Source of the DNA: a virus
Direction: 5' to 3' (one strand)
DNA length: 41,401 nucleotides
Virus record (IMG/VR): IMGVR_UViG_3300047562_003294
Location: 1-41,401 of that record
Notes under the pieces: model-generated
What the model saw: the letters and a program-made list of their open reading frames with translations, nothing else
Database searches by the model: none
What the model was told of the DNA's origin: nothing
In this document: in pieces, positions 14,445 through 41,030 of the stretch
Layout of the letters: every line of letters starts with the position of its first letter
How positions within the stretch are numbered: position 1 is the stretch's first letter
Program-made: the position numbers and the translations under genes

Positions 14445-14448
14445 ATTT
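14382..14448 (-). repeat. 33-bp tandem duplication at the FkbM gene start
   Basis: Two identical copies of a 33-base unit, in frame, duplicate 11 residues at the protein N-terminus and provide two equivalent start codons. The exact identity suggests a recent slippage event. Confidence 0.9.
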
Positions 14449-16894: not shown

Positions 16895-16902
16895 AGTGTT
16901 GA

Positions 16903-18433: not shown

Positions 18434-18459
18434 AACAAATTCCTTTAATAATTTTAATA

Positions 18460-18467
18460 TATTTATA
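18460..18467 (-). promoter_or_regulatory. T4-type late promoter TATAAATA inside the glycan cluster
   Basis: Perfect T4 late octamer in the 34-base gap between two glycan genes, 26 bases before the SDR start, with an AAAGGAA ribosome site in between. It would allow late expression of the SDR-to-epimerase part of the cluster independently of upstream genes. Confidence 0.6.
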
Positions 18468-19439: not shown

Positions 19440-20074
19440 CTAAACAAACTCCAAAGCGGGGCTATTGTTTTTTCATAAGCATCTTTGTTGTCTTGTAGAC
19501 AATCTTGATAAAACATAGGATGTTTACAAGCATAAACTCGGAATTGGTTCATTCTACTCGCCATCAAAACATCGCAATGATTGTTTCCGTCATCCTTCTC
19601 TATTAAATCTATACAATGTTGCTTATACCTGTCGGTGACATAAAGTATGGCATGTGTTGTCAACATTCCACCTATTCTGTAAAAATGTTCTTTTCTTTCT
19701 AAAACAACAGGATTCGCACAGCAAGCGGCATTTGGGTGTCTAGATTTCCACTCAGGATGTAATCCATTCAAGCATGTCCCGAGATATACTGCATCAGCAT
19801 CATCTGGTATTTGAAATGTTTTTTTATAGTATTCTGTGATATTTACATCATCTTCCAGTATAAGACAAGGTGATCCCAGAGAGTGTTTTAGAGCCTTTAC
19901 ATGACTCTTACCGCAACCAATTCTGACTGCATTTACTGGATCGTTGCTTATAAATGGTTCTACAAATTCAGGAATTAAGCCTGCTTTAGTAGTGTTTTGT
20001 ACAAATTTTTCCTTTCTACCAGACTTTATACCACCATACCATAATGTTTTTGTGTTCATTAGATCTATATTCAT
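19436..20074 (-). CDS. GT25-like glycosyltransferase
   Basis: 212 residues from ATG 20074 (ATGA overlap with the fucosyltransferase); an in-frame TTG lies four codons upstream. RIGCGKSHVKALKHSLGSPC followed by LILEDDVNITEYY is the GT25 (LPS beta-1,4-galactosyltransferase) signature, with EDD as metal-binding acidic cluster, and DDADAVYLGTCLNGLHPEW and GGMLTTHAILYVTDRY agree. Similar in build to the gene at 20783-21463, so two diverged paralogues flank the fucosyltransferase. Confidence 0.75.
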   Translation of the reverse strand: MNIDLMNTKTLWYGGIKSGRKEKFVQNTTKAGLIPEFVEPFISNDPVNAVRIGCGKSHVKALKHSLGSPCLILEDDVNITEYYKKTFQIPDDADAVYLGTCLNGLHPEWKSRHPNAACCANPVVLERKEHFYRIGGMLTTHAILYVTDRYKQHCIDLIEKDDGNNHCDVLMASRMNQFRVYACKHPMFYQDCLQDNKDAYEKTIAPLWSLFR

Positions 20075-20799
20075 ATCAATATCCAATCTTTACAATAAAT
20101 ATCGTTCGGTGTTATATTCAGATCATTTTTACCAATAAACCATCTCAAAGGCGCTACTACTTTCTTTTGTTCTCCTAAATAGGCCCCCCACCAAGAAAAG
20201 GTGCTGTTTGCCATAATAAGTCCAGAACAAATACTCATCTGATATAGATCAATATAGTGATTTTGGTTTTCCGCATAAAAATCACCGATATTATTTTCCT
20301 TACACCATTCTATATCATCCGAAAAAACTATGAATTTTTTATTTGGAAAAAATGTTTTTGCTTTATTGATGTAGTCCGAAGAAACAACTGGGTGAAAATG
20401 ATTTCCAACATAATCACCTCTTCTTATATGGATTCCGACGATATTTTGTGTGTCTTGTGAAAGAGGAATTTTCCATTCTTCTCTAAATTTAAGAGTTTGC
20501 AAGAGTTCGTTCTTACAGTGTTTAAAATATTTTTCAGATTGATAATAACCAGTATAATTTGTTTCGTCTGCATAAAAAGAAGGAAAGTTTGTGTCAAAAT
20601 TGAAAAATTTTTCTTTGTTTGTGGATATTGATATCTTACTTGAAATTTTACAATTTATATCAAAACACTTGATCAAATCTGTATTTGGAGGAATACAATA
20701 ATCATATCCTTTTGCTTTATGTAATCCATAAAGAAAAGAAAATTGAAAAATTTGATTTCCCAATCTTCCGTTCTTTCCCAAATTATGCATTGTTATCAT
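20071..20799 (-). CDS. GT11-family alpha-1,2-fucosyltransferase
   Basis: 242 residues. Motifs are textbook: GRLGNQIFQFSFLYGL (11-26), GIHIRRGDYV (HIRRGDY at 124-130, GDP-fucose binding) and MANSTFSWWGAYLG near the C-terminus. It transfers fucose (or a related 6-deoxy sugar) from a GDP donor. The GDP-mannose dehydratase in the same operon provides the precursor of GDP-fucose, although no GDP-fucose synthase (WcaG) is visible in this window. Overlaps the upstream GT25-like gene by 17 bases. Confidence 0.9.
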   Translation of the reverse strand: MITMHNLGKNGRLGNQIFQFSFLYGLHKAKGYDYCIPPNTDLIKCFDINCKISSKISISTNKEKFFNFDTNFPSFYADETNYTGYYQSEKYFKHCKNELLQTLKFREEWKIPLSQDTQNIVGIHIRRGDYVGNHFHPVVSSDYINKAKTFFPNKKFIVFSDDIEWCKENNIGDFYAENQNHYIDLYQMSICSGLIMANSTFSWWGAYLGEQKKVVAPLRWFIGKNDLNITPNDIYCKDWILI

Positions 20800-21463
20800 A
20801 GATTATCTGCCTATCAAAATTCAATGATCCATCGTGATTGTAAGAAGACCATCTATTTAGTTCGGGTTCTGTGGTGACATGTGTAGTAGTAACACAACCA
20901 TTATTTTGGTAGAAAAGAACCTTTTTTGGAGCATATAGTTTAATGTTACCAAGAACATTCTTAGCATAAGACATATCCAAAGCCTCTTTTTCTATTATGC
21001 TTTTATCACTATCCAAGATAAAATTGTTTATCTTGTCGTTTAAAAACAACATGGCGTGTGTAGCCATGCAACTTTTTAGACGCATCCATTTATTGTTTAT
21101 ACTTTCTGCTCTGAACCAATCGTTGTGTCCTGCCGTCGAATAACCCAAATACACAACATCAGCATCATCTGGAACTTCTATTTTTCCGTCTATAACATAT
21201 TCATTATACCATTGTGTAGGTCTACAATCGTCTTCAAGCAAAAGAAAAGGAACAGAAGTCTTATACCTTTTCATAACAGAATTGTGGCTTTGACTACAAC
21301 CAACATTGAAACAATTTTTTTGTTTACGCAAAAGAATTGCTTCAAATCTTTCATAGTTTCGATAATCCAATTTTTGCATAAATTGTCTTATGTTTTGATT
21401 TTTTTGAATATCTTTTGCAAGATTTATGTAAACTTTTTTGATATTTTTTAAATCAATTATCAC
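20783..21463 (-). CDS. GT25-like glycosyltransferase (second copy)
   Basis: 226 residues with a GTG start that overlaps the upstream stop (GTGA). NVGCSQSHNSVMKRYKTSVP, then FLLLEDDCRPTQWYNE, DDADVVYLGYSTAG and CMATHAMLFLNDKIN parallel the GT25-like gene at 19436-20074 throughout, so they are paralogues with probably different acceptors. EDD is the likely metal-binding motif. Confidence 0.75.
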   Translation of the reverse strand: MIIDLKNIKKVYINLAKDIQKNQNIRQFMQKLDYRNYERFEAILLRKQKNCFNVGCSQSHNSVMKRYKTSVPFLLLEDDCRPTQWYNEYVIDGKIEVPDDADVVYLGYSTAGHNDWFRAESINNKWMRLKSCMATHAMLFLNDKINNFILDSDKSIIEKEALDMSYAKNVLGNIKLYAPKKVLFYQNNGCVTTTHVTTEPELNRWSSYNHDGSLNFDRQIIYDNNA

Positions 21464-22230
21464 ATTATACCTCTCTGATATGGACGGGTACTTCTATTCA
21501 ATAACAAAGGATCGAATATAGATCCAACATTTATATTGAAATTATTATCAAAACTCATCTTGCTTATAGCAATATTACCAAAGAAACCAGCACAACAAAG
21601 CAAAACACAATCCTTTACATTCATCATCTTTTGATTTATGTCCTCATATATCGCAGCATCATATTTCCAAGCATCTCTTCTGGATATTTTCCAAGTTTTT
21701 TTGATGTTTAATCTCAAATTTGATGTTGTTGCGTCTTGAGAACATACCAGATAAATCTCTCTATTCATCAACTGAGATAAAAGATCAGTCTTGCATCTTT
21801 GGTAAAAATTACAGAATATACGAGAACAGGTATATCTTTCTCTTGGTAAATTTCCTAATTTTACAACTTGTTCTCTTTGTTTAGTAAATTCGTTATTCGG
21901 TCTACCTTTTTCCGCTGGTTTATATGTGTAAGACTGAATACCAACAAAATAATTTGAATGATCTATCTTTGCTGCTTCTTCTAGATCTTTTACATAAAAA
22001 TTGTTACTTTCAGTAGACGGATCGAAAGATAATTCAGGTCTGTCTAGTTTTTGTTCTTTTAGGATTATTCTACTCTCACCTTCACCAAATCTAACAAGAG
22101 AAAAATGCTGATTGTTTTTTAATCTTTGTAAGAAGTAATCAAACTCTTGCTCAGAATACTTCAGATCTTTTTCTTTCGAATAATTTGTCCAATCAGAAAA
22201 ATATTCCCATTGTTCATTTGTGTATGGCAT
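21460..22230 (-). CDS. GT-D-fold glycosyltransferase (DUF1792-like)
   Basis: 256 residues. FSLVRFGEGESRIIL matches the S-h-x-R-F-G-(D/E)-G-E motif of the GT-D superfamily (DUF1792), where the acidic pair binds the metal. Other matching features are the RPELSF, NYFVGIQSYTYK and VLLCCAGFFGNIAISKM segments, the last resembling the nucleotide-binding G-x-h-x-x-h-h of the family. GT-D enzymes are known from streptococcal serine-rich-protein glycosylation; phage members are less described. Ends inside the GTG start of the GT25-like gene. Confidence 0.65.
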   Translation of the reverse strand: MPYTNEQWEYFSDWTNYSKEKDLKYSEQEFDYFLQRLKNNQHFSLVRFGEGESRIILKEQKLDRPELSFDPSTESNNFYVKDLEEAAKIDHSNYFVGIQSYTYKPAEKGRPNNEFTKQREQVVKLGNLPRERYTCSRIFCNFYQRCKTDLLSQLMNREIYLVCSQDATTSNLRLNIKKTWKISRRDAWKYDAAIYEDINQKMMNVKDCVLLCCAGFFGNIAISKMSFDNNFNINVGSIFDPLLLNRSTRPYQRGIM

Positions 22231-22840
22231 TGATTTTTCCTTTCAGTCTTCTACTTGCCTGAGTGTGTTCTATTACAACTGGTTTCTCTTCCTCGAACCA
22301 CGGAGCATCAAATACCCTGCAATATGTCTGGGGAAAGCAGAATGTCTTCAATCCATTCTTGTCGTGACGATCCCACACCTTCTGTAAACTCTGCTGTTCC
22401 CACACCGTGGGGTTCTTCGTCGCTTCTTCTTTCCAATCGTTTATTAGATCTACTGCTTTGGTGGTATTGTTAAAATACATCGTTCCGCCAGCAAGTGCTT
22501 CATTTCCCCTATCTGGACCCCAGGGTCGAAGATGAGCATTTCTCTTTTGGTTCCAGACATTAGGGATCCAATAGCAACCAAAATCATATGCATCCAACCT
22601 ATCAAACAGAGAAGGAACATCCTTAAATCTGGCATCCGCATCCACCCACAACACACCACACTCAAACTCGCTCAACGCTTCCAGTATGACTTCTGCTTTC
22701 ATCGTGCAGTTGTGAACCCAAGATCCCTTGCTTGGTTTAGCGTAAGCCTTGACATCAATACCGAACTTGTAAGCGGAACTTACAAGTTGTTCTGCTTCTT
22801 GAGTGTATTCTGGTGTATAAAAAGTGACAACTTTTAGCAT
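22214..22840 (-). CDS. putative GT-A glycosyltransferase (DxD type), copy A
   Basis: 208 residues. Opens [20 protein letters not shown], has [20 protein letters not shown] (DADAR as the DxD motif) and [20 protein letters not shown], plus a [12 protein letters not shown] segment. Clearly paralogous to the gene at 23850-24467: both share opening, SWVHNC/SWVKNC, the DxD block, a gap of about the same length and a Y-C-(R/Q) end. A nucleotide-sugar transferase of GT8/GT77-like build; donor unknown. G+C is higher than most of the operon, like the adjacent gmd. Confidence 0.65.
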
Positions 22841-23853
22841 CTTGGAGCCAATTTATTATCGTGAACATACAACATATAATCTCTGCGTCCTAACTGAAAA
22901 TCGTGATCTACCATCATATTGATCAATTCATCTGTAGTCACTTTCGGTTCCCATCCCAACTTGTCTTTTGCTTTTGTAGGATCGCCTAGCAACTGATCTA
23001 CCTCTGCTGGTCTGTAATATCGAGGATCTATCTCGACATAATCCTCATAGTTCATATTATATCTTGCAAATGCTTTCTGACAAAATTCACGAACGCTTAT
23101 CATCTTACCTGTCGCAACAACATAATCGTCGGGTTTCTCCTGCTGCAACATTCTCCACATCGCTTCCACATAATCCCCAGCAAAACCCCAATCTCGCATC
23201 GCATCAAGATTTCCAAGATAAAGTTTCTTTTGTAATCCTTGGTATATTCTACCGACTGCACGGGTGATCTTTCTTGTAACAAATGTCTCGCCGCGTCTCG
23301 GACTTTCGTGATTAAACAGAATACCGCAGGATGCGTGTATATCATACGATTCGCGGTAGTTTACAGTCAACCAGTGCGCGTATACCTTTGCACAACCGTA
23401 TGGAGAACGGGGATAGAAGGGTGTAGTTTCCTTCTGTGGGACTTCCTGCACCTTACCGAACATCTCGCTAGAAGACGCTTGATAATAGCGCACTTTCTTT
23501 CCGTGCCTCTTTTCGTAGAGACGAATGGCTTCTAGAACATTCAGAGTTCCAATACCTACAGTTTGACCAGTATAAACAGGAGCATCAAACGAAACCTTGA
23601 CATGGCTCTGAGCACCAAGATTGTATATCTCGTCAAAGTGCTGTGTGTCGATCAAATTTGCTACTGTGTTATAATCTGTCAAATCACCGTGATGGAGAAA
23701 CAACTTAGGGTTCTCCATTAAATGATCTATTCTTGATGTGTTAAAAGAAGAAGAACGACGAATGATGCCATGAACTTCGTATCCTTTTTCGATAAGAAGA
23801 TCTGCTAGATAAGAACCGTCTTGTCCTGTAATACCCGTAATCAGTGCTTTCAT
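22834..23853 (-). CDS. gmd: GDP-mannose 4,6-dehydratase
   Basis: 339 residues, the usual size. [20 protein letters not shown] is the NADP loop; QASSSEMFG (125-133) and SPYGCAK with Y152-x3-K156 give the catalytic residues; [18 protein letters not shown] and [20 protein letters not shown] are diagnostic of Gmd. It makes GDP-4-keto-6-deoxymannose, precursor of GDP-fucose, GDP-rhamnose or GDP-perosamine, feeding the GT11 and possibly the DegT enzymes. Base composition is noticeably more GC-rich than its neighbours, suggesting a separate acquisition. Seven-base overlap with copy A of the GT-A pair. Confidence 0.97.
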
Positions 23854-24467
23854 AATCTATTAACTTTCTGTATCACCGATGCCAGATCGTGCAAGATCAC
23901 AGCATCTTTATCACCGTGTAACTTATGTATCTGACAATACGAACGGGGCAACCAAAGAGTAGGTGGTTGTACTTCTGCCCATGCTTCCTGCAAAGTCCAC
24001 TGATCCCATCTATTGTTGTGCTCTCCTAATTTTATCCACAATTCTAACATATCAATTATTGTGTTTGTGTGACGAAAAAATATAGTGCCAGATTCAAACC
24101 AAGCAGGTTCTCCTGTCCATTTTTTAGGCAAATGAATTGTTTCTCTTCCCACTGGTTTTATTGTTTTTGGGCCTGGTTTTGCTCTTATTGCAAAATCTTC
24201 TTTTATGTTTAGAAACAATTCTGGGTATTTCACGACTCTAGAATCCGAATCCAACCAAACAACACAAGAATTAATATTTGTTTGTTTTACCTTTTCTAAA
24301 ATGTAATTTGCTTTTTGAGCGCAGTTTTTAACCCAAGAACCTAGATCATTTCTTTGATCCACCTCGACTAAAATATGATTGTGTTCACAAGACTGTTTTA
24401 GTCTTTGCGCCATCTCTGGATATATTCCATTTGGTGTGTGAAAACATACCACCTTTACATCATTCAT
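23850..24467 (-). CDS. putative GT-A glycosyltransferase (DxD type), copy B
   Basis: 205 residues, paralogue of the gene at 22214-22840. [54 protein letters not shown] (DSDSR as DxD) and [19 protein letters not shown] occupy the same relative places. Flanks gmd on the other side, so a GT-gmd-GT block exists. ATGA overlaps on both sides. Confidence 0.65.
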
Positions 24468-27814: not shown

Positions 27815-27883
27815 AAAGCCTTCCTTATATTGTAACATATTAATAAGATCGACCAAAATGGTATGCAAATATGTATAAACAAA

Positions 27884-27904
27884 CAAACCCCCAGAGGGGG
27901 TTTG
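27884..27904 (-). terminator. terminator after the tmRNA-like coding piece
   Basis: Minus-strand CAAACCCCC-TCT-GGGGGTTTG, 9-bp stem, followed by TTTGTTTATA. It closes the RNA region and separates it from the gene starting at 27814. Confidence 0.85.
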
Positions 27905-28063
27905 AGCCAATTCAGATGCGGGATGGCCAGTCCCCGCTGCTTCAGGCAGCACGACGCATTGGTGCGGCGTTTAAAATTGCAACATTTTTTTAACGACACC
28001 TATTGCACGGTGACGGACATCTCCCTGTTGATTACTTAACGCCAGTCGATTCTGTTCGGTCCC
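27905..28063 (-). ncRNA. ssrA: candidate permuted tmRNA, coding piece (tag RNA)
   Basis: The minus-strand RNA begins GGGACCG (28063-28057), then AACAGAATCGACTGGC, with the AUCGAC motif of tmRNA D-loops. GGGACCG pairs with CGGTTCC at 28276-28270 over seven positions (one G-U). A tag frame starts at GCA (27980) and reads AILNAAPMRRAA before TGA (27944-27942); the double-Ala end is typical of proteolysis tags. The stop lies in the loop of hairpin GCTGC-CTGAA-GCAGC (27950-27936), as in helix 5 of tmRNA. A GC-rich pseudoknot-like hairpin and a terminator follow. The 5' half of tmRNA thus lies after the 3' half, the permuted order. Confidence 0.65.
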
Positions 28064-28068
28064 GAAAG

Positions 28069-28142
<74 letters not shown>

Positions 28143-28148
28143 TTAGTT

Positions 28149-28265
28149 GACACTATGATGGATTGCACCATCTACCTTGCTTTGTCGGTCAATTACTAGA
28201 TAAACCGTTTTACGCAAGCGCATCTCTTGTCAAGACCGCGTTTTCGACAGAACGCCAATAGTGTC
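28149..28265 (-). other. structured intervening segment of the candidate permuted tmRNA
   Basis: GACACTAT (28265-28258 on the minus strand) pairs perfectly with ATAGTGTC (28156-28149), an 8-bp stem that brings the acceptor piece's 3' end close to the tRNA-Pro 5' end. Inside are further hairpins: GCGTT/AACGC and GATGG/CCATC. No ORF is seen. It is probably removed during RNA processing. Confidence 0.5.
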
Positions 28266-28268
28266 TAA

Positions 28269-28327
28269 TGGAACCGAGGGGATTTGCACCCCTGTCCTGA
28301 TCGTCTTTCTTCTTCAGATCATAAATG
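28269..28327 (-). ncRNA. ssrA: candidate permuted tmRNA, acceptor piece
   Basis: Minus strand: GGAC, then AGGGG-TGCAAAT-CCCCT (5-bp T-stem with a 7-base loop) and CGGTTCC plus A73, the exact layout of a tmRNA 3' end (GGAC before the T-arm). The T-loop has G instead of U at position 55. No D-arm or anticodon arm precedes it: a coding sequence ends at 28328, so a normal tRNA does not fit. The 5' limit is approximate; CTTTC-type pairing of AGACGATCAG with CTGGCGTT of the coding piece may form helix 2. CCA is not encoded. Confidence 0.6.
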
Positions 28328-28693
28328 TCAATAATATGTATGTTGTTTTTTTGGCATGATGGGAAAATATTTTTTCAAACTATTAAGAGGAATTTCACTA
28401 TCGAGTAGCATTTTTGCTTGATTGTTTTTATGCGATTGGAGAACTTCTACTTGAAGTTCTAGTTCCGCAACTTTCTTCTCTAGACGATCAATCTCAAGCA
28501 AACACTGATCGTTCTCGTCCTTGAGATCCTGCAACTTCTGTTTGTTACAAGTCATCAAACTAGACACCATCAGGTTAGGATTGTCACTAATGAAAGTAAC
28601 CGTATATTCCCAGTTATTGCCTGGTCCAAGAAGTTTTCTCACATCACAGGAAAGAAAACCAAACTCATTTTCCGTTGGATTCGGGTTGTTCAT
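28328..28693 (-). CDS. small coiled-coil phage protein
   Basis: 121 residues. N-terminal half is globular (EFGFLSCDVRKLLGPGNNWE, then YTVTFISDNPNLMV); residues ~50-90 form a heptad-rich coiled coil (LLEIDRLEKKVAELELQVEV). Its start is overlapped by 29 bases of the preceding 45-residue gene. Not recognised; conserved-looking early protein in the tRNA region. Confidence 0.6.
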   Translation of the reverse strand: MNNPNPTENEFGFLSCDVRKLLGPGNNWEYTVTFISDNPNLMVSSLMTCNKQKLQDLKDENDQCLLEIDRLEKKVAELELQVEVLQSHKNNQAKMLLDSEIPLNSLKKYFPIMPKKQHTYY

Positions 28694-31647: not shown

Positions 31648-31715
31648 GAAGAGTTTAGATCAAACCAACTCTTGATTACGCATCATAATATCTTCGATGT
31701 TCGTGGAGTTCATAA

Positions 31716-31805
31716 CGGACAGAGAAGGATTCGAACCCTCGGATGGTTTCTAGAACCATCGGCGGTTTAGTAAACCGCAGCATTAGACCACTCTGCCATC
31801 TGTCC
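31716..31805 (-). tRNA. tRNA-Ser-like, anticodon ACT
   Basis: Class II: acceptor GGACAGA/TCTGTCC, anticodon stem GCGGT/ACCGC with loop TTACTAA, long variable hairpin GATGGTT/AACCATC, T-loop TTCGAAT, G73. All Ser features, but position 34 is A where GCT is expected; A34 in this box is unusual. Confidence 0.85.
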
Positions 31806-31809
31806 AAAA

Positions 31810-31883
31810 TGATCGCACGGGGACTCGAACCCCGACTCATCGCCTTGAAAGGGCGAGGATTTAACCAGTTAATCTATGCGACC
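31810..31883 (-). tRNA. tRNA-Glu (TTC)
   Basis: Acceptor GGTCGCA/TGCGATC, stem TCGCC/GGCGA, loop CTTTCAA with TTC, T-loop TTCGAGT, A73. Confidence 0.93.
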
Positions 31884-31887
31884 GAAG

Positions 31888-31960
31888 TAGCGCGAGTGGG
31901 ATTCGAACCCACACTGTATTGATTTTGAGTCAATTGACTCTGCCGTTGGTCTACCGCGCC
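31888..31960 (-). tRNA. tRNA, anticodon CAA (Leu by anticodon), class I shape
   Basis: Acceptor GGCGCGG/TCGCGCT (G1-U72), stem ATTGA/TCAAT, loop CTCAAAA with CAA, T-loop TTCGAAT, A73. The variable loop has only five bases, whereas bacterial tRNA-Leu has a long arm, so its charging identity is uncertain. Confidence 0.8.
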
Positions 31961-31965
31961 ATTTA

Positions 31966-32514
31966 TTAGAGAACTTTTGAGCAGTAATCGTACATGGCGA
32001 TTCCGCTTGCTGTTCCTACATTGAGTGATCTTACGCTTCCATACTGTCTAATATACACGATGTCGTTACACAAGTCAAGTAGTTCTTCGGGAATTCCCAC
32101 TTGTTCCTGTCCAAAGATCATCAGCGTGTGTTCGTTCTTGGGCCACTGATAGTTGTTGATAGGTGTGGCGTTTCTTACATTATCAATACCGACGATACGA
32201 ACATACTTGTGCTCGTCCACAAGTTCACGAATAGAGTTCTTTACATCGGCGATCTCTTTCACATGGCGAAAATTCATATAGTTATGAGTTCCGACCGTGC
32301 CGCGGCGATCATATTGCTTCTTGCCGTAGATCCAAACACTCTTTGCAAGAAATGCATTTGTGTTGCGAATGACAGTAGCAATATTGAAATCATTGCCAAG
32401 ATTGCTGCAAAGCACAGTGAAGTTGTTGCGCTTTGTGTCAAGATCGGCAAGAATGGCTTCATGCGACCAATAGTGATAAGGGTCGATGATGTTACGAGTT
32501 TCTGCGATGCTCAT
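31966..32514 (-). CDS. SpoU/TrmH-family RNA 2'-O-methyltransferase
   Basis: 182 residues with the three SPOUT motifs: NIATVIRNTNAF (N and R of motif 1), LMIFGQEQVGIPEELL (FGxExxG) and YGSVRSLNVGTASGIAMYDY (SLN motif 3). Such knotted enzymes methylate ribose in tRNA or rRNA. Its gene ends five bases from the class I CAA tRNA and sits amid fourteen tRNA genes, so a phage or host tRNA is the likely target. It lacks an N-terminal RNA-binding domain. ATGA overlap with the small membrane protein gene. Confidence 0.85.
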   Translation of the reverse strand: MSIAETRNIIDPYHYWSHEAILADLDTKRNNFTVLCSNLGNDFNIATVIRNTNAFLAKSVWIYGKKQYDRRGTVGTHNYMNFRHVKEIADVKNSIRELVDEHKYVRIVGIDNVRNATPINNYQWPKNEHTLMIFGQEQVGIPEELLDLCNDIVYIRQYGSVRSLNVGTASGIAMYDYCSKVL

Positions 32515-32645
32515 ACGAAAAACATTTTAATAAACAAGGTAGCGTAACAAATTACATTCAGAAAAAATGAAAACAATGCTATTGCCGTTGCTATACGGGT
32601 TTCGTAGTATATTTTATCAATATACTTTTTATCTTCTTCTGTCAT
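32511..32645 (-). CDS. 44-residue single-pass membrane protein
   Basis: MTEEDKKYIDKIYYETRIAT then AIALFSFFLNVICYATLFIK: a charged head and one transmembrane helix. The stop overlaps the SpoU start (ATGA), which supports reality, but no clear ribosome site precedes the ATG. Function unknown; small membrane proteins of this kind can block superinfection or lysis. Confidence 0.5.
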   Translation of the reverse strand: MTEEDKKYIDKIYYETRIATAIALFSFFLNVICYATLFIKMFFV

Positions 32646-32702
32646 AAAGGAAATGATGGCGTTTCCACCACCATTTCCGTGTGCCAAGATTATTCAATCT
32701 AA

Positions 32703-33506
32703 TCAGAACTTAAAACTGATGCCAGCAGATAGGACCACATTTAGGTCCGCTGATTGAGCATCATATACAACTGGGACATCCACAGATGCATTAAAAATTG
32801 CATTCTTGGAGAAATTCCAAGAAACTTCTGGTCCTACGAGGAACACAGAACTACTTCCAGAGTATCCTTGTTCTGCATTAACAGAAACAACAAACTCATC
32901 GTTCATAACATAAGAAAGAGTGGTCACACCACCGTAAACATCATCGTTGACAAATCCTCCAAACACTGGAGAATAAGTGTATTCATCAACGAATGAATAA
33001 GTGAAAGTTTGATTGAGAGCAATATTGCCCCAAGCAACACCTGCTTCACCGCCGACATACACAACAACATCACTGGACGAGTAAGCACCCTGAAGTGGGA
33101 TCTTACTACCGACAACGAAATCAAGAGTTGCGAAATCTGTCTTGAGGAAATCGCACTTACTATCAATCAGATTATAAGTGAGGGAAAAATCTAAATCGCC
33201 CAAACCTGTACCAGAAACATCATTCACTCCATCATTGAGTTGCCAGGCAAACTCGCTTGGATTGTATGACTTATTCTGGTCATTAAACAGAGAAATAGAA
33301 GCACCCAACTCGATTTTCTCATCGACTGTGTATGCAAACTTCTCTGTTACGGCAACAATATTGCCATCTTCGAAATTGAAAAGGGAAACATCCGATGCAA
33401 GATCGAACTTAAACCCATTACAACATTCCTTTGCTGGCTGCGTCTCTTGTGCTGCGGCAACTCCGCAGGAAAGAACGGCAGCCAAATATGCTAAACTATA
33501 CTTCAT
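32703..33506 (-). CDS. phage-encoded outer-membrane beta-barrel protein
   Basis: 267 residues from ATG 33506 (GGAGG nine bases upstream). MKYSLAYLAAVLSCGVAAAQ is a Sec signal peptide with an A-x-A cut site. The mature part alternates amphipathic strands (FKFDLASDVSLFNF, FAYTVDEKIELGASISLF, LGDLDFSLTYNL) and ends AGISFKF, the C-terminal Phe that the Bam machinery recognises. Likely a 12-14-stranded porin-like barrel of the transporter/MetA-degradation type. Could change host permeability, mask a receptor or block competing phages. Composition is GC-richer than the tail genes. Confidence 0.75.
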   Translation of the reverse strand: MKYSLAYLAAVLSCGVAAAQETQPAKECCNGFKFDLASDVSLFNFEDGNIVAVTEKFAYTVDEKIELGASISLFNDQNKSYNPSEFAWQLNDGVNDVSGTGLGDLDFSLTYNLIDSKCDFLKTDFATLDFVVGSKIPLQGAYSSSDVVVYVGGEAGVAWGNIALNQTFTYSFVDEYTYSPVFGGFVNDDVYGGVTTLSYVMNDEFVVSVNAEQGYSGSSSVFLVGPEVSWNFSKNAIFNASVDVPVVYDAQSADLNVVLSAGISFKF

Positions 33507-33537
33507 TTTTGGATCCTCCAATAAGGTTTTATAAAAA

Positions 33538-33560
33538 GTCCCTTCCTTGGCAAAAGGGAC
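33538..33560 (-). terminator. terminator or attenuator in the 5' UTR of the barrel gene
   Basis: Minus-strand GTCCCTT...AAGGGAC hairpin followed by TTTTTAT. It lies between the promoter at 33565-33594 and the barrel ATG, so it would act on that promoter's transcript as well as on the tRNA-Ile transcript. Confidence 0.65.
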
Positions 33561-33564
33561 AGAG

Positions 33565-33594
33565 ATTGTATCTAGGTTAGTTTTCATAAGTCAA
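33565..33594 (-). promoter_or_regulatory. sigma-70-type promoter TTGACT-18-TACAAT
   Basis: The -35 TTGACT abuts the 3' end of tRNA-Ile, and the -10 TACAAT (33565-33570) precedes the attenuator-like hairpin and the barrel gene. Confidence 0.55.
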
Positions 33595-33669
33595 TACGCC
33601 GTCTTGGATTCGAACCAAGTCTTATTCGATTATAAGTCGAACTGAGATAACCAAGACCTCCCACGGCGC
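33595..33669 (-). tRNA. tRNA-Ile (TAT)
   Basis: Acceptor GCGCCGT/ACGGCGT (G1-U72), stem TTCGA/TCGAA, loop CTTATAA with TAT, T-loop TTCGAAT, A73. A genuine UAU anticodon is rare in bacteria, which mostly read AUA with lysidine-modified CAU. Confidence 0.88.
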
Positions 33670-33681
33670 GTTGTTGTATAG

Positions 33682-33709
33682 ATTATACAGCGTTTTCGCT
33701 GCTTGTCAA
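33682..33709 (-). promoter_or_regulatory. sigma-70-type promoter for tRNA-Ile with palindromic spacer
   Basis: TTGACA (33704-33709), 16-base spacer, TATAAT (33682-33687), 12 bases before the tRNA. The spacer holds a perfect inverted repeat CAGCG-AAAA-CGCTG, possibly an operator. The -10 overlaps the stop codon of the nucleotidyltransferase gene. Confidence 0.75.
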
Positions 33710-34126
33710 GTAGTTCTTGAGAATCCAACTAGAAGAGTTCATCTTATAGTCGCCACCCACTCCAAACTCAAAAGAAAGATTGGAGTCGTTCACATCCATC
33801 TCAGGAATGTTCGTTGCAGTTCTATCGCCACCGTTAGCAAAAACGATATGCGTTTCAGGAAAATATTCACGAACGACACGAATCGCGTCCTTAGCACTAT
33901 TATCATCGTCATTAAAACCAATGACCACATCTACATGCCGAATACTTCCAACTATCTCAAATCGTTCGGAGATCGGTAGAAAGAATTTTCCCTTCTTGCG
34001 AGTAAGCCAAGCATCGGAATTCACACCGACAACCAACATATCGCCAAGTTTTCTTGCTGCTCGCATATAGGCAATATGCCCACTGTGGAGTGGATCAAAG
34101 CCACCAGTGATCAATACTGTCTTCAT
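33683..34126 (-). CDS. cytidylyltransferase-type nucleotidyltransferase (RfaE/TagD-like)
   Basis: 147 residues. MKTVLITGGFDPLHSGHIAY carries the H-x-G-H nucleotidyltransferase motif, followed by LGDMLVVGVNSDAWLTRKKG and ISERFEIVGSIRHVDVVIGF, like the C-terminal domain of HldE/RfaE. It activates a phosphorylated sugar or alcohol with ATP or CTP. It lies away from the glycan operon, but may serve lipopolysaccharide heptose or cofactor metabolism. ATGA overlap with the upstream gene; the tRNA-Ile promoter is inside its 3' end. Confidence 0.8.
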   Translation of the reverse strand: MKTVLITGGFDPLHSGHIAYMRAARKLGDMLVVGVNSDAWLTRKKGKFFLPISERFEIVGSIRHVDVVIGFNDDDNSAKDAIRVVREYFPETHIVFANGGDRTATNIPEMDVNDSNLSFEFGVGGDYKMNSSSWILKNYLTSSENAV

Positions 34127-34377
34127 GCTTGCACCTCGTAACTGATCTTGCTTTTCTTGTTGTTCACATGGCCGTTTTCGTTCTTCTGAAAGTAGTTACT
34201 CTTCTGACGATCTTCGTCGTGTCCAAGACGATAATTAACAACCTCGACGCCGAGATCACGCATCTGCTTCTCGGCGATATGATTGTCAAAGCAAAACCTT
34301 ATGATTTCGCCGGCGGTCTTCAGAGCATCTTCTTCACTACCATTAATCGGAATATCAATATGAAGTCGATAAGTCAT
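34123..34377 (-). CDS. 84-residue phage protein, unknown
   Basis: MTYRLHIDIPINGSEEDALK suggests an alpha/beta ferredoxin-like start, followed by GEIIRFCFDNHIAEKQMRDL and a basic disordered tail. GAGGTAAAGA precedes the ATG. Not recognised. Confidence 0.6.
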   Translation of the reverse strand: MTYRLHIDIPINGSEEDALKTAGEIIRFCFDNHIAEKQMRDLGVEVVNYRLGHDEDRQKSNYFQKNENGHVNNKKSKISYEVQA

Positions 34378-34385
34378 TCTTTACC

Positions 34386-34703
34386 TCAGTACGGCCAACG
34401 ATTCTCCTGCGGAATGTAGCCTAGTTGCACAAGTTCTGTCAAAAATTCGTCAATCATGCCAATCGGTATTTCAGAAATAGGCCACTTGACTGGAGATTCC
34501 GTGTTTTCAGCATCTTCGCAAGGTTTGCAATTTTGCGATTGCTTGCACTTCTCCATCTCCGATACGACATGATCTGCTATTCTACAGACATTCATCAGAG
34601 TTTCAAGCGTCTTTGCGGATTGGTAGTACAAATCTTTATTTACAAGATTGTTTTCCTTTCGGGCAAGGGTGCGGAGTTCGTAAATCATTTCTGCTACTTT
34701 CAT
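34386..34703 (-). CDS. 105-residue helical phage protein
   Basis: Helical N-terminal half (VAEMIYELRTLARKENNLVN, KTLETLMNVCRIADHVVSEM), then a cysteine pair region (CKQSQNCKPCEDAE) and a C-terminal MIDEFLTELVQLGYIP helix. Start preceded by AGGAGGACTGCC. No family recognised. Confidence 0.6.
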   Translation of the reverse strand: MKVAEMIYELRTLARKENNLVNKDLYYQSAKTLETLMNVCRIADHVVSEMEKCKQSQNCKPCEDAENTESPVKWPISEIPIGMIDEFLTELVQLGYIPQENRWPY

Positions 34704-34718
34704 GGCAGTCCTCCTATG

Positions 34719-35078
34719 TTAGAGGGACAAAATGCCCTCATCTGTAGTATATTTAATACTTTCGAAGGCTTCCATACACCAAGGCAGACACAATTCGCAC
34801 GGTTTTGCCATACGAAGATTTCCTTCTTTATTGAACCGAATATTCAACAAATGAAGTTTTTTCCCCTTCAACTTTCTAGGAACCTTTCTATATGCATCAA
34901 ATTCAGAATGCATTTCTTCAAAAGGATAGCCAATTTTCTTGGCTTCTGGATGTGTTTTGAAACGATTACACCCAACCGAAATCAATCGGTTCTTGTGGAA
35001 GATTAGAGAAAGATGCTTCTTCTGTCGCGGAATTTGCATACAGAGAGGAAACATTTTTTCGAGATATTGTTCCATCAT
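34719..35078 (-). CDS. cytidine-deaminase-fold protein
   Basis: 119 residues. HLSLIFHKNRLISVGCNRFK, EEMHSEFDAYRKVP and AKPCELCLPWCMEAF give the zinc site of the deaminase superfamily: H-S-E (in place of H-A-E) and P-C-x2-C. Substrate may be a free nucleotide, a base in tRNA or DNA. The ATG is 6 bases after tRNA-Arg with no ribosome site. Confidence 0.65.
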   Translation of the reverse strand: MMEQYLEKMFPLCMQIPRQKKHLSLIFHKNRLISVGCNRFKTHPEAKKIGYPFEEMHSEFDAYRKVPRKLKGKKLHLLNIRFNKEGNLRMAKPCELCLPWCMEAFESIKYTTDEGILSL

Positions 35079-35084
35079 AAAAAG

Positions 35085-35158
35085 CGTCCCTGGCAGGATT
35101 CGAACCTGCGACTTACTGCTTAGAAGGCAGTTACTCTATCCAACTGAGTTACAGAGAC
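35085..35158 (-). tRNA. tRNA-Arg (TCT)
   Basis: Acceptor GTCTCTG/CAGGGAC, stem ACTGC/GCAGT, loop CTTCTAA with TCT, T-loop TTCGAAT, G73. Confidence 0.93.
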
Positions 35159-35163
35159 AAAGA

Positions 35164-35191
35164 AATGTTGGCGGATTTCTCCGCCAACATT
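35164..35191. terminator. strong hairpin terminator
   Basis: 12-bp stem AATGTTGGCGGA/TCCGCCAACATT with a GAAA loop on the minus strand, directly after the stop of the gene at 35192. T-runs are modest on both strands. It separates that gene from tRNA-Arg. Confidence 0.75.
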
Positions 35192-35548
35192 TTAGGTTGC
35201 GAGAGTAAGTTCGGGAGCGGGTGCTTCAACCTTATTGGAAGGAAGAATCAGACCATTTCCGTACTGGGCATTATACTGATTGGTGATCTCTTGTCTAGGC
35301 TCTGTTGCCCAGACAATATTGTTCACATTCAGACTAACACCCTCTTTCTCTGCTACAGTGTAGAGAAGCCATGGCGCCATGCCAAGACCCTTTTCCGCTG
35401 CAACAAGAACAGCAGGATTCTTCACCGTAACCGAGGAGTTCGACCAAACATCCTCACTTACCTTTCCCATCACTTGCTCTCCGCTTACGAGGCCGAGAAG
35501 CATTACCTTTTCCTCCGATTCCTTCACTTCCTTCTTTGCTTTGCTCAT
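35192..35548 (-). CDS. small Sm-like/beta-barrel phage protein
   Basis: 118 residues from ATG 35548. KVMLLGLVSGEQVMGKVSED is an Sm1-like strand pair (h-x-G-x-x-x-G-x-x-h-x-G-x-h) and NPAVLVAAEKGLGMAPWLLY continues it; the C-terminal NGLILPSNKVEAP tail is probably disordered. Proteins of this kind are frequent in marine T4-like phages without assigned function. It overlaps the upstream gene by 95 bases, so its start might be later. Confidence 0.55.
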   Translation of the reverse strand: MSKAKKEVKESEEKVMLLGLVSGEQVMGKVSEDVWSNSSVTVKNPAVLVAAEKGLGMAPWLLYTVAEKEGVSLNVNNIVWATEPRQEITNQYNAQYGNGLILPSNKVEAPAPELTLAT

Positions 35549-35666
35549 TACGAACCTTGCCTTTCTTGGTTTTCTTACCAAAGATTTTGTCCCAGTTTTC
35601 AGACCACTTCTGGTAGTCTACAGGTCTATATGTATCACCTTTACCAGCGCCGTGCATTCCTTCCAT
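35454..35666 (-). CDS. 70-residue conserved small phage protein
   Basis: MEGMHGAGKGDTYRPVDYQK followed by WSENWDKIFGKKTKKGK. The G-K-G-D-x-x-R-P-V-D-...-W-D-x-I-F signature recurs in small proteins of many tailed phages. The second half is basic and overlaps the next gene by 95 bases. GGAGAAATGT precedes the ATG. Unknown function. Confidence 0.65.
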   Translation of the reverse strand: MEGMHGAGKGDTYRPVDYQKWSENWDKIFGKKTKKGKVRNEQSKEGSEGIGGKGNASRPRKRRASDGKGK

Positions 35667-35680
35667 ACATTTCTCCTATA

Positions 35681-35752
35681 AGCCACCTGTGAGATTCGAA
35701 CTCACGACCTTCGCATTACAAATACGAAGCACTACCCCTGTGCTAAGGTGGC
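35681..35752 (-). tRNA. tRNA-Thr (TGT)
   Basis: Acceptor GCCACCT/AGGTGGC, stem TCGTA/TGCGA, loop TTTGTAA with TGT, T-loop TTCGAAT, U73. Confidence 0.93.
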
Positions 35753-35755
35753 AAA

Positions 35756-35826
35756 CTACCCCGCTTGGATTCGAACCAAGAAAAAGAGATCCAAAGTCTC
35801 CTGTGATACCGTTTCACCACGGGGTA
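35756..35826 (-). tRNA. tRNA-Gln (TTG)
   Basis: Acceptor TACCCCG/CGGGGTA, stem GGAGA/TCTCT, loop CTTTGGA with TTG, T-loop TTCGAAT, G73. Three bases from tRNA-Thr. Confidence 0.93.
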
Positions 35827-35862
35827 ATGGATAATGGGGAGTATTTCATCCCCATCATCCAT
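35827..35862. other. hairpin between the winged-helix gene and tRNA-Gln
   Basis: ATGGAT-x-ATGGGG pairs with CCCCAT-x-ATCCAT around a 10-base loop, immediately before the tRNA-Gln 5' end on the minus strand. No U-run follows, so an RNA-processing signal is as likely as a terminator. Confidence 0.4.
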
Positions 35863-35879
35863 CACACTGAATTATTTAT

Positions 35880-36137
35880 TCAGCGACCACCAACGCTGTA
35901 GTTGGACGGACCAACCAGGCGAACGCGCTTCATGCTGTAGCGAGTCTCACCATCGCGGGTGTTGGAAGTCACGATTCGCCAGTTTCCGTAACGCTCAACC
36001 TGCTCCTTGATGTCGGAGATGGTCGCGCGGAAATTCGCAACCTTGAACATCTTCCTGGCCTCCGAAGCGGTAAGACCGCGACCACTGTGAAGATATTCGA
36101 GAACCTGTGACTTCTTACTCTGAGTTGCAGTTGCCAT
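35880..36137 (-). CDS. small winged-helix / HTH protein
   Basis: 85 residues from ATG 36137, nine bases after AGGAGG. SKKSQVLEYLHSGRGLTASE then ARKMFKVANFRATISDIKEQ reads as a helix-turn-helix whose recognition helix is NFRATISDIK, followed by a wing (WRIVTSNTRDGETRYSMKR). Winged-helix proteins of this type are common in phages and could regulate the adjacent tRNA promoters. Confidence 0.65.
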   Translation of the reverse strand: MATATQSKKSQVLEYLHSGRGLTASEARKMFKVANFRATISDIKEQVERYGNWRIVTSNTRDGETRYSMKRVRLVGPSNYSVGGR

Positions 36138-36221
36138 TAGTAGCAACCTCCTAATATTAGACGGCTGTTAGAATTTACAAGAACAAACCCAGCCGTATGG
36201 TCTAGAACTTGTTGTTTGAAA

Positions 36222-36919: not shown

Positions 36920-36947
36920 ATTATACTGTTGCTTTTAGAGAAGTCAA
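36920..36947 (-). promoter_or_regulatory. sigma-70-type promoter TTGACT-16-TATAAT
   Basis: -35 at 36942-36947 overlaps the stop codon of the SET-domain gene; -10 at 36920-36925 lies 31 bases before the next ATG. Confidence 0.75.
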
Positions 36948-37357
36948 GTTTTTGATCTGGTTTTCCAGTAATTAGCACCATAAGAAACAAATACCTCATC
37001 CCCCTGCTTGATGTCTTCTTTAGCAACAACTATCAAGGTTTGATTTGAATAATTTATTTCCATATTTGTGTTGGGAGAATCTGAGTGATTGTAAAGAGAT
37101 CCAAAACCCATTGCTAAAAACATATTTTGACCATGTGTTTGACATTCTTTACATTGACAATTAGAAACCCAAGAATAGTCTCTCAATACTTTATCGTATT
37201 GGTACTTCATTCTCCACTCTAGTTTAAGCAATCTAGAAATTTCCAAAAGTTCTCCTTTTGAAATATCTTCTGCTGCAAAAACACCTATACCGTGAATTTG
37301 TGATTTTTTTACATGTAACTTGGACGACACACTATAAACATTATCACTATTGTTCAT
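36944..37357 (-). CDS. SET-domain protein lysine methyltransferase
   Basis: 137 residues. KKSQIHGIGVFAAEDISKGE is the SET opening (G-x-G-h-F-A), FGSLYNHSDSPNTNMEI is the N-H-S pseudoknot motif, and DIKQGDEVFVSYGANYW the final G-D-E-h-x-h-x-Y motif with catalytic tyrosine. A minimal SET domain like that of viral vSET. The insert contains C-x-C-x2-C (NCQCKECQTHG), maybe a zinc knuckle. Its protein target is unknown; host ribosomal or DNA-bound proteins are candidates. Confidence 0.85.
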   Translation of the reverse strand: MNNSDNVYSVSSKLHVKKSQIHGIGVFAAEDISKGELLEISRLLKLEWRMKYQYDKVLRDYSWVSNCQCKECQTHGQNMFLAMGFGSLYNHSDSPNTNMEINYSNQTLIVVAKEDIKQGDEVFVSYGANYWKTRSKT

Positions 37358-38656: not shown

Positions 38657-39442
38657 TCAACTCCAGTTGTTGAACAGTATCGTCAAATCAGAAGCACCAA
38701 CAACACCATCACCATCAAGGTCGTATGGATTTTCTCCAAATGATACTGCTCCCCAATTACTCAAAAGCATTGCCATGTCAGCAGAATCTACTACACCATT
38801 TCCATCAAAATCACCAGCAAGTGTTTGTGCTCCAACGATCACAGCATTTGTGGTGGTTCCCAGAACATCTAGACCAGGAATATAACTGCCATATACTCTA
38901 GTTTTTGCTGTGGAATTTGCTGTCATCTCGGGTATGAAGAATACTTCTGTTTGAGCGAACGAATCAATCACTCTAAAACGCAAACGAACAATATTTACCT
39001 CTGCGTTTGTAACGATGAATGTTTGACCGAGTTCACCGTATCCAAAATACAAAGCATTTCCGTCTGCTGGAGGCATCGCCTCATTGATTCCATAGAAATC
39101 TCTTAGACCATTACAAAGAGGATCATCTATTGCATTTCCATTCTCGTCCTCTACGCAGGGTAGACCTGATATGGCAAGCCAAATATATGGATGGGAACCA
39201 GTATGATCTACACCAAGAAACTCCAACTTGGTGTTGTCCCAACCAAAGATAATATCTGCAACACTATATCTCTGATCTGTTGTATCCGCGTTCATGCGAA
39301 TCTGAACACCAAATGTGTCTCCAACTTGCACAGGTTGATCGGCAAGAGAAACCATTGATAGATTAATCTTGCCATTTGGATCGGTTTGACCATAAACATT
39401 TGTAATTACGAATAAACTCAATAAAAACATTAAAGTCTTCAT
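38657..39442 (-). CDS. secreted cohesin-like protein with C-terminal dockerin repeats
   Basis: 261 residues. MKTLMFLLSLFVITNVYGQT is a signal peptide. Residues ~28-200 form a beta-sandwich compatible with a cohesin/adhesin domain (VQVGDTFGVQIRMN, DIIFGWDNTKLEFLGVD, VNIVRLRFRVID). Residues 210-261 hold two dockerin-type calcium loops, DFDGNGVVDSAD and DLDGDGVVGASD, each followed by a hydrophobic helix ending N-W. Such G-D-x-D-G-x-G-x-V-x-x-x-D repeats with terminal W are abundant in Planctomycetota and related phyla. Strong ribosome site AGGAGG and a CTAAATA late box precede it. It likely acts at the host or virion surface. Confidence 0.75.
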   Translation of the reverse strand: MKTLMFLLSLFVITNVYGQTDPNGKINLSMVSLADQPVQVGDTFGVQIRMNADTTDQRYSVADIIFGWDNTKLEFLGVDHTGSHPYIWLAISGLPCVEDENGNAIDDPLCNGLRDFYGINEAMPPADGNALYFGYGELGQTFIVTNAEVNIVRLRFRVIDSFAQTEVFFIPEMTANSTAKTRVYGSYIPGLDVLGTTTNAVIVGAQTLAGDFDGNGVVDSADMAMLLSNWGAVSFGENPYDLDGDGVVGASDLTILFNNWS

Positions 39443-39468
39443 ATTACACCTCCTTAAGTGTGCAAATG

Positions 39469-39475
39469 TATTTAG
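39469..39475 (-). promoter_or_regulatory. late-type box CTAAATA before the dockerin gene
   Basis: CTAAATA 26 bases before ATG 39442; AAGGAGG lies in between. Confidence 0.5.
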
Positions 39476-39485
39476 GTAAAAAGAA

Positions 39486-39505
39486 ACGCCCTCTTTCGAG
39501 GGCGT
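39486..39505 (-). terminator. terminator with GAAA loop after the heat-shock gene
   Basis: Minus strand ACGCCCTC-GAAA-GAGGGCGT, 8-bp stem, then TTCTTTTTAC. Confidence 0.9.
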
Positions 39506-39537
39506 CGGACCTGAGATGCGGTCTCAAGTGGGGTTAT

Positions 39538-39933
39538 TTACTGAATTTTTATAATCTTTGGTTTCTTCTCTTCTGGAACCAATGTCCCAATCACAATACG
39601 AAGAATACCATCCTTATATTCTGCACTTTCTACAACCGAATACTCGGAGAGTGCGAACTTCTTCTCAAAAGAGCGAAGTGCGATTCCTTTGTATGTATAA
39701 TTTTCCGTTTGGGTCTTTTTCTCTTTCTTGGCGGAAACCTTGAGAGTGCTGTTCTCCACCATCACCTCGATATTGTCTTTCGAGTAACCGGCGAGAGCGA
39801 ACTCCAGTATCGTGTTTTCTCCGTCCTTGTATGCGTCGAACGGTGGGTAGGGACTGGCATCTGGCTTCCCTCTGCTGTAGAACAGATCACGATCAAACCC
39901 AATCAAATAATCAAACAATGTCGGTACAGTCAT
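39538..39933 (-). CDS. Hsp20/alpha-crystallin small heat-shock protein
   Basis: 131 residues from ATG 39933, which has AAAAAGGAG eight bases upstream. TLFDYLIGFDRDLFYSRG is the IbpA-like N-terminus; YPPFDAYKDGENTILEFALA and GYSKDNIEVMVENSTLKVSA start the alpha-crystallin domain; GIALRSFEKKFALSEYSVVE and A-x-Y-K-D-G-I-L-R-I-V-I close it. A holdase that protects folding proteins; many marine T4-like phages carry one. It forms a single-gene unit with its own terminator. Confidence 0.95.
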   Translation of the reverse strand: MTVPTLFDYLIGFDRDLFYSRGKPDASPYPPFDAYKDGENTILEFALAGYSKDNIEVMVENSTLKVSAKKEKKTQTENYTYKGIALRSFEKKFALSEYSVVESAEYKDGILRIVIGTLVPEEKKPKIIKIQ

Positions 39934-40018
39934 TTTTGTCTCCTTTTTAAGCAAGACTGTCTAACGATGGCCACCCCCGAAGGCGATGGCATAGTATGTA
40001 TACGCGCCAAAAGAAACA

Positions 40019-40038
40019 ACCCCTCATTTCTGAGGGGT
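40019..40038 (-). terminator. terminator overlapping a stop codon
   Basis: Minus strand ACCCCTCA-GAAA-TGAGGGGT, 8-bp stem whose loop and 3' arm include the TGA of the periplasmic protein gene; TGTTTCTTTT follows. Confidence 0.85.
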
Positions 40039-40317
40039 GTATCGAATTATTACATTACCTTGCCAGATGCGTATGCTCTCTAGATCGGGATACTCGTCCT
40101 CCAGCAACTCCAACAACGCTTTCTCAAGTTCCTTGCGTGTCTTGCGATCCATTTTAGGAGGTCGGCCCACCTCGACCCTTCCCTCCAGAGCGGTTCCAAG
40201 GTTGAACTTGGGTGGAAGATAGTTTCGATGCTCAAACAGCAAATCCTGCACAGGAAGAATGATTGTCTCCGCTGATGCAGACGCAGTGAGAAAGAGTGCC
40301 ACTAGAAATGCTTTCAT
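40024..40317 (-). CDS. small secreted/periplasmic protein
   Basis: 97 residues. MKAFLVALFLTASASAETII is a clear signal peptide with an A-S-A cut, leaving ~81 residues with a basic KMDRKTRKELEKALLELLED helix and a C-terminal strand (SIRIWQGNVIIRYTPQ). Not recognised. GGAGAGGACA precedes the ATG and the start overlaps the previous stop by ATGA. Coexpression with a putative internal protein is notable. Confidence 0.65.
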   Translation of the reverse strand: MKAFLVALFLTASASAETIILPVQDLLFEHRNYLPPKFNLGTALEGRVEVGRPPKMDRKTRKELEKALLELLEDEYPDLESIRIWQGNVIIRYTPQK

Positions 40318-41030
40318 TGTCCTCTCCTTGCCTTGCTGATCTCAATCGCTGCCAATTGTCTCATAGCCTTTTTTCTGCTGCTGTGTCTGCCAAAGACTTT
40401 TTTCTCACTCTCCCCGCCTTTTTTTCCTTTCACCACCCACTGCTCTCCTTCTTTCTCGACCGTCTCTGCAACAGTCTCTCCCCCGACAATGAATGGCTTT
40501 CCTGCCAGACGAGACTTGAAATCACCCGCTTCAATCTCTGGCCCAGACTTCAGACCAGCACCACCGATGCGTGATCTCTTACCTTTCGGAACCCAAGTGG
40601 ACTCGCCTGTTCCGTGAAAGACGCTGCCGTGCTTTTGTGACACCGTGAGAACCGTGTCCTGTCCGTACATCTCTCCGTGCTTCTTCATATCGCTCATAAA
40701 CTCTGAATGTAGGGAAGAGGGATTCGATTCCTTGTGTCCAGCCATCAGTGATCCCGAGTGAACCATGAAAGACTTCTCTTTCACAGGTCTTCTCTCGCCA
40801 TTGTGATCTTCGATGTACTCACCTTTCACAGCAATCGGTGCATACCCGTGCTGTATGAGACTCTTCTTGAGTTGCTTGGTTCTTCTGTTGTTCTCAGATG
40901 GACTGAGATTTGCACGACTTGCAGAGATGAAACCAACCATGTGTCCTGCGCTGATGTGGGTGTGCAGACGGGAAAGAGATCTCTTTGCTGCTTCGGATAG
41001 TTCCGTGGTATAGTGTCTGAAAGATTTCAT
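40314..41030 (-). CDS. putative internal head protein with DUF3293-like domain
   Basis: 238 residues. MKSFRHYTTELSEAAKRSLS resembles a capsid-targeting start. Residues ~30-90 (MVGFISASRANLSPSENNRR, LIQHGYAPIAVKGEYIED, VKEKSFMVHS) follow the DUF3293 pattern: N-x-x-R-x-x-x-L-x-x-x-L ... G-Y ... E-x-S-F-h-V. The rest is basic, ending KKAMRQLAAIEISKARRGQ. If packaged, it could act early in the host. The alternative is an ordinary cytoplasmic early protein. No ribosome site is obvious. Confidence 0.5.
   Translation of the reverse strand: MKSFRHYTTELSEAAKRSLSRLHTHISAGHMVGFISASRANLSPSENNRRTKQLKKSLIQHGYAPIAVKGEYIEDHNGERRPVKEKSFMVHSGSLMAGHKESNPSSLHSEFMSDMKKHGEMYGQDTVLTVSQKHGSVFHGTGESTWVPKGKRSRIGGAGLKSGPEIEAGDFKSRLAGKPFIVGGETVAETVEKEGEQWVVKGKKGGESEKKVFGRHSSRKKAMRQLAAIEISKARRGQ

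Follow-up and report, generated by a model that had tools for sequence, protein, structure and literature searches.

What does a phage gain from a gene for a secreted protein that joins a cohesin to a dockerin, and where did it obtain that gene? Few non-covalent protein locks are as strong as a cohesin–dockerin pair, and such pairs have, to our knowledge, been studied almost only in cellulose-degrading bacteria. The gene lies in a stretch of 41,401 nucleotides (positions 1 to 41,401 of the IMG/VR virus record IMGVR_UViG_3300047562_003294; hereafter the window), where an earlier note had read a signal peptide, a cohesin-like beta-sandwich and a dockerin with paired calcium loops in one phage protein and had taken the combination as a clue to a planctomycete host. 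The domains, the phage origin and the host clue have all held up, and the note's idea that a phage might attach to, or block, host complexes through the protein is plausible; the phage gene family, the phage proteins that carry only cohesins or only dockerins, the late promoter and the upstream RNA element had escaped that reading. Our preferred explanation, to which we give a probability of roughly 55%, is that the protein derives from a host adaptor which T4-like phages of planctomycetes have turned to their own use.

There is very little doubt that the gene encodes a cohesin–dockerin protein, predicted to be secreted, whose features are collected in Table 1. PF00404 matches residues 209–258 of the protein at 30.8 bits (E 3.5e-7), and a profile search of the whole window returned a single dockerin match (31.8 bits, E 7.7e-9). 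The two calcium loops read D-F-D-G-N-G-V-V-D-S-A-D and D-L-D-G-D-G-V-V-G-A-S-D, each followed by a helix that ends in NW and that the structure model places at residues 220–228 and 250–258, respectively. The GC-type dockerin model NF041540 rejects the window copy, which scores 10.5 bits against an NCBIfam cut-off of 29. At the N-terminus, MKT leads into a hydrophobic run (Kyte–Doolittle values up to 2.98) and then VYG–QTD; the signal peptide is a reading of this hydropathy profile, made without SignalP, and secretion is predicted from sequence only. A cohesin and a dockerin are thus found in one protein with a predicted signal peptide, the make-up expected of an adaptor.

Table 1. Features of the cohesin–dockerin locus in the window
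Feature	Position	Strand	Details and basis
Secreted cohesin–dockerin protein gene	38657..39442	-	261 aa, ATG, stop included; ORF call
Predicted Sec signal peptide	39389..39442	-	~residues 1–18, cleavage before or near Q19; hydropathy
Cohesin-fold domain	38831..39385	-	~residues 20–204; AlphaFold2 and Foldseek, family Pfam scores, alignment
Type I dockerin	38669..38818	-	residues 209–258; PF00404 30.8–31.8 bits, cut-off 22.9
Calcium loop 1	38777..38812	-	residues 211–222, DFDGNGVVDSAD; sequence reading, alignment to solved dockerins
Calcium loop 2	38687..38722	-	residues 241–252, DLDGDGVVGASD; sequence reading, alignment to solved dockerins
Shine–Dalgarno AGGAGG	39449..39454	-	upstream of the cohesin–dockerin gene start; sequence
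T4-type late-promoter-like motif	39468..39475	-	CTAAATAC; sequence motif
Intrinsic terminator of upstream gene	39485..39506	-	covarying stem; part of conserved RNA element
Two-hairpin RNA element with terminator; gene-swap boundary	39480..39533	-	CCCC[A/G/C]CTTGAGA..GCATCTC..G[U/C/G]CCGAC + terminator; conservation, covariation
HSP20 small heat-shock protein, upstream neighbour	39538..39954	-	PF00011 56.4 bits

Judged by its genes, the window contig is that of a T4-like phage, as befits an IMG/VR virus contig: it codes for a gp32-like protein (E 1.5e-112), baseplate hub and wedge, tube cap and tail tube, together with an S-adenosylmethionine lyase-like protein, HSP20 and many tRNA genes. It has no close isolate, since its gp32 is only ~54% identical to the best-ranked cyanophage proteins, and it may be a fragment, since the IMG/VR record is listed as linear. 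Several other features of the minus strand were observed. A long block (12850–24467) reads by eye as sugar-nucleotide, glycosyltransferase and methyltransferase genes and suggests surface-glycan modification; positions 36944–37357 encode a SET-domain protein (PF00856, 60 bits); and a permuted tmRNA found by ARAGORN (27851–28359) overlaps a tRNA-Pro, its segment 28137–28297 being 91% identical to L037.

The region upstream of the gene bears on when the protein may be made. A late-promoter-like motif stands just upstream of the ribosome-binding site, as in late genes of T4-like phages; it is a near match and not an exact one, given that the T4 and cyanophage consensus reads TATAAATA / NATAAATA (PMC2984593). 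Of 28 cohesin-family loci, 8 have a strict late motif in the 60 nt before the gene, as against 0.75% of random 60-mers, and the probability computed for this enrichment is too small because the loci are partly copies of each other. On these motifs, late secretion of the protein is likely. Next to the promoter lies the two-hairpin element, whose exact core recurs in 52 viral stretches (L009, L015–L017, L024–L072), usually once per locus, 3' of genes for ribonucleotide reductase, HSP20, outer-membrane-protein-like or PEP-CTERM-like proteins and 5' of variable late genes. In the structure computed with RNAalifold, one hairpin pair is A-U in 15, G-C in 4 and C-G in 1 of 20 aligned copies, and several pairs of the terminator stem covary as well, which supports a real RNA structure. 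Neither Rfam nor a blastn search of isolate phages gave a match to the element. The mobile regulatory cassettes of T4-type phages, attributed to Arbiol et al. 2010 (as cited in PMC4177764), are said to consist of a stem-loop and a promoter that bound exchanged genes; the window differs in its late-type promoter and conserved extra hairpin, and a role of its element in recombination is inferred.

Freshwater Phycisphaerae have been proposed to hold peptidases on their surface through cohesin–dockerin pairs, with a secreted adaptor of one dockerin and one cohesin that carries a signal peptide (PMC6461901); this planctosome is itself a hypothesis. We propose that the phage gene would be transcribed late from the T4-type promoter suggested by the motif and that its product, as the N-terminal motifs indicate, would leave the cytoplasm by the Sec pathway of the host and lose its signal peptide near VYG–Q. 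Calcium would then fold the dockerin outside the cytoplasm, the phage dockerin would dock into cohesins of the host extracellular network, and the phage cohesin would offer a site for dockerin-bearing proteins, so that the surface network would be occupied or re-wired. The docking step has slightly better than even odds. The benefit can be named only tentatively: sites might be blocked against competing phages or host proteases or, slightly less probably, phage-made dockerin enzymes might be recruited. An example of such an enzyme is found in contig 3300036770_001972 (G395), which is T4-like by its major head, scaffold and protease genes and encodes, ~4 kb from its own cohesin–dockerin gene, a subtilase with a signal peptide and a C-terminus that is dockerin-like by the family profile.

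Related phages hold a wider set of such proteins. A second phage family comprises two-cohesin proteins without a dockerin, most of them with a signal peptide (L114–L126, L050, L053, L060); besides its cohesin–dockerin protein, G394 encodes a secreted beta-helix protein whose C-terminus resembles a dockerin, and a PEP-CTERM-like gene comes directly after it. The window contributes one dockerin to this set, and dockerin enzymes are carried by the related phages. Could these proteins serve the phage particle instead, linking tailspikes, fibres and proteases to it or coating released virions after lysis? Dockerin-like or half-dockerin motifs do occur in tail-protein-like beta-helix proteins and in a collagen-like tail fibre (L012), although several of these are half-dockerins that score below the cut-off; two phages (L123, L125) pair a two-cohesin gene with a trypsin-like dockerin gene within ~3 kb, and a trypsin-like dockerin protein lacks a signal peptide. 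Surface delivery is likewise not universal, because family members L112, L113 and L127 and the two-cohesin proteins L053 and L060 have no signal peptide. However, the window protein and most of its relatives carry one, and the pair Cys96/Cys110, which is invariant in the alignment of the close family, fits an exported protein. Moreover, no dockerin was found in 65 kb of a close relative that carries a two-cohesin gene. We consider assembly on the virion unlikely as the main function; a virion role is possible given the members without signal peptides and the virion-type dockerins. Slightly less probable is a combined scheme in which dockerin-bearing tail proteins of the virion would grip host cohesins as a receptor and the secreted cohesin–dockerin and two-cohesin proteins would then saturate this lock, bringing about superinfection exclusion and progeny release.

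The planctosome has been proposed to serve peptide degradation (PMC6461901), and the subtilase–dockerin protein of G395 would suit a phage that boosts a peptide-degrading complex on the host surface, in the manner of auxiliary metabolic genes. Expression from a late promoter would nonetheless leave little time for any benefit before lysis, and the single PF00404 match means that the window fragment has no dockerin enzyme of its own. We regard such a fitness gene as improbable and continue to prefer the captured adaptor.

A search with models of both domains, as the earlier note had advised, was positive for the dockerin and negative for the cohesin of the window copy, which scores 13.9 bits against the cut-off of 24.1 of the Pfam Cohesin model (PF00963). 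The domain might accordingly be read as an adhesion or carbohydrate-binding beta-sandwich that shares the cohesin fold and binds no dockerin, so that the dockerin alone would anchor the protein; cohesin-like folds do occur in other adhesins (9ifr in the fold search), and the insertion between C96 and C110 was modelled poorly. Yet relatives that align to the window protein over its whole length or over the cohesin domain pass the same cut-off (L127 at 25.7 bits, the two-cohesin protein L060 at 31.2 bits). An AlphaFold2 model built from 16 relatives (mean pLDDT 78.3), searched with Foldseek, retrieved cellulosomal or other cohesin modules at PDB ranks 1–42, the best with E 5e-9 and a probability of 1.00; an earlier model from 5 sequences (pLDDT 42.9), for which the fold search was merely suggestive, was set aside. 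The beta-sandwich is thus borne out as cohesin-like, and a purely adhesive function appears doubtful.

The adaptor belongs to a phage gene family. Full-length homologues, 43–84% identical, occur with different neighbours in at least 21 other IMG/VR contigs, some of which are identical copies from related samples. There were no close relatives in isolate phages, and the dockerin alone gave only matches with E of 5–9 against them. The copy in L002 is 84% identical to that of the window and has a nuclease gene on one side and a tubulin-like gene on the other; the gene follows a ribonucleotide reductase gene in L010 and HSP20 in the window. A tubulin/FtsZ-like protein adjoins the gene in L002 (5138–6331; PF00091, 49 bits) and L007 (8179–9366). 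The window also encodes, at 32703–33587 (-), an outer-membrane-barrel-like protein that had no isolate-phage match and has a look-alike in L002 (3050–3844), two genes before the cohesin–dockerin gene. Between the window and L002 the mature part of the protein has a dN/dS of ~0.12 (NG86) or ~0.09 (YN00) and, by this measure, is under purifying selection.

Two comparisons indicate how the gene moves. First, the promoters and signal peptides of the window and L002 are unrelated, but the 45 bases that begin at codon 21 are all identical in the two genes, which suggests recombination at the signal-peptide junction. Second, contig 3300032320_001622 (L054/L116), the close relative without a dockerin mentioned above, matches the window at 87% over 4.6 kb (31664–36220), at 89.6% over 39469–40318 and at 96.8% over 40312–41030; between these conserved flanks the cohesin–dockerin gene is replaced by a large gene and one for a secreted two-cohesin protein, and the match stops at 39469, inside the promoter. 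Such a swap means that the gene has been exchanged within phages, and an assembly chimera, which the earlier note would have read from a close match confined to bacterial chromosomes, or host contamination is rejected as next to impossible, although the nearest cellular homologues are chromosomal, on the independent viral contigs, the shared flanks and the GC content (40% for the gene and 37% for the window versus 57–65% for the planctomycete genes).

The cellular homologues point to the source. In the planctomycete order of G001, a MAG of a Planctomycetia bacterium, the search found dockerin matches at E <=1e-8 in 68 of 151 genomes and the complete architecture in five (E ~1e-50 to 1e-38, ~35% identical); the order was chosen around the best dockerin match, which introduces some ascertainment. 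By comparison, another Planctomycetota order gave 0 of 148 genomes at 1e-15, and Bacteroidota (1 of 395) and Acidobacteriota (5 of 396) at 1e-8 gave matches to the dockerin region only and none at full length; ratios between orders or phyla are approximate because each genome contributed 17 candidates in the order of G001 and 6 in the controls. Across 199 Planctomycetota genomes, matches were to the dockerin region save for one weak cohesin-region match. A scan of GTDB contigs with two short patterns found no full-length homologue, a limit of its sensitivity, since the order-level profile search did find them. By eye, the five planctomycete homologues lie near chromosomal-looking genes (ribosomal protein S7-like, biotin carboxylase-like). 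A tree of 22 proteins splits the viral from the planctomycete rows by one branch with 100/99 support; the direction of transfer is our inference because the root of the tree is not known. From these sequence comparisons we conclude that T4-like phages have probably captured a host adaptor of the proposed planctosome. Its partners in the host are uncertain, as Pfam detects a cohesin in just 7 of 101 genomes from that order.

The restriction of full-length homologues to one planctomycete order agrees with the host clue of the earlier note, as do PEP-CTERM-like tails in proteins of related phages, which imply use of the host exosortase. A signal-peptide-like start together with such a tail (..PGAIALLGMAGLxGRRRR) was seen in L016, L017, L033, L047, L061, L070, L071, L104, L107, L119 and others. 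Several of these genes lie directly before cohesin genes, one just before the cohesin–dockerin gene of G395; their model scores are sub-threshold, and among the 199 Planctomycetota genomes the tail matched in G001 only. At the level of DNA, the matches listed fall at tRNA positions with 78–91% identity and include no clear spacer and no prophage link, the spacer search having covered the window beyond its first 26.5 kb. Overall, a planctomycete is very probably the host of the window phage.

How does the protein compare with known systems? The planctosome adaptor of Nemodlikiaceae (Phycisphaerae, PMC6461901) is similarly a secreted planctomycete protein with one dockerin and one cohesin and no link to cellulose, but it is chromosomal and ordered dockerin, HYR, cohesin, whereas the phage protein has a cohesin followed by a dockerin and no HYR. 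The homologues of the order of G001 (L139–L143) share its length and domain order, with ~35% identity over 238–249 aligned residues; they are cellular, with a GC content of 57–65%, and at three of the five loci the gene is followed by one for a second secreted dockerin protein that is partly cohesin-like. Adaptor scaffoldins of cellulosomes, such as ScaA of Acetivibrio cellulolyticus, likewise unite a cohesin and a dockerin of the same folds in one secreted protein; they are large, multi-cohesin and cellulase-binding, and the window has no such enzymes. In the literature searched, neither dockerins nor cohesins are described as a gene family of phages, and phages are mentioned once, in a structural-homology remark on a tailspike (PMC5967307). 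Both domains are familiar; what appears to be new in that literature is that they recur in phages as a family of exchanged genes.

A recurrent, exchanged cohesin–dockerin family in phages would show viruses entering this game of molecular locks. It would also allow phages of the mostly uncultured planctomycetes to be traced by sequence and make the planctosome hypothesis approachable from the virus side.
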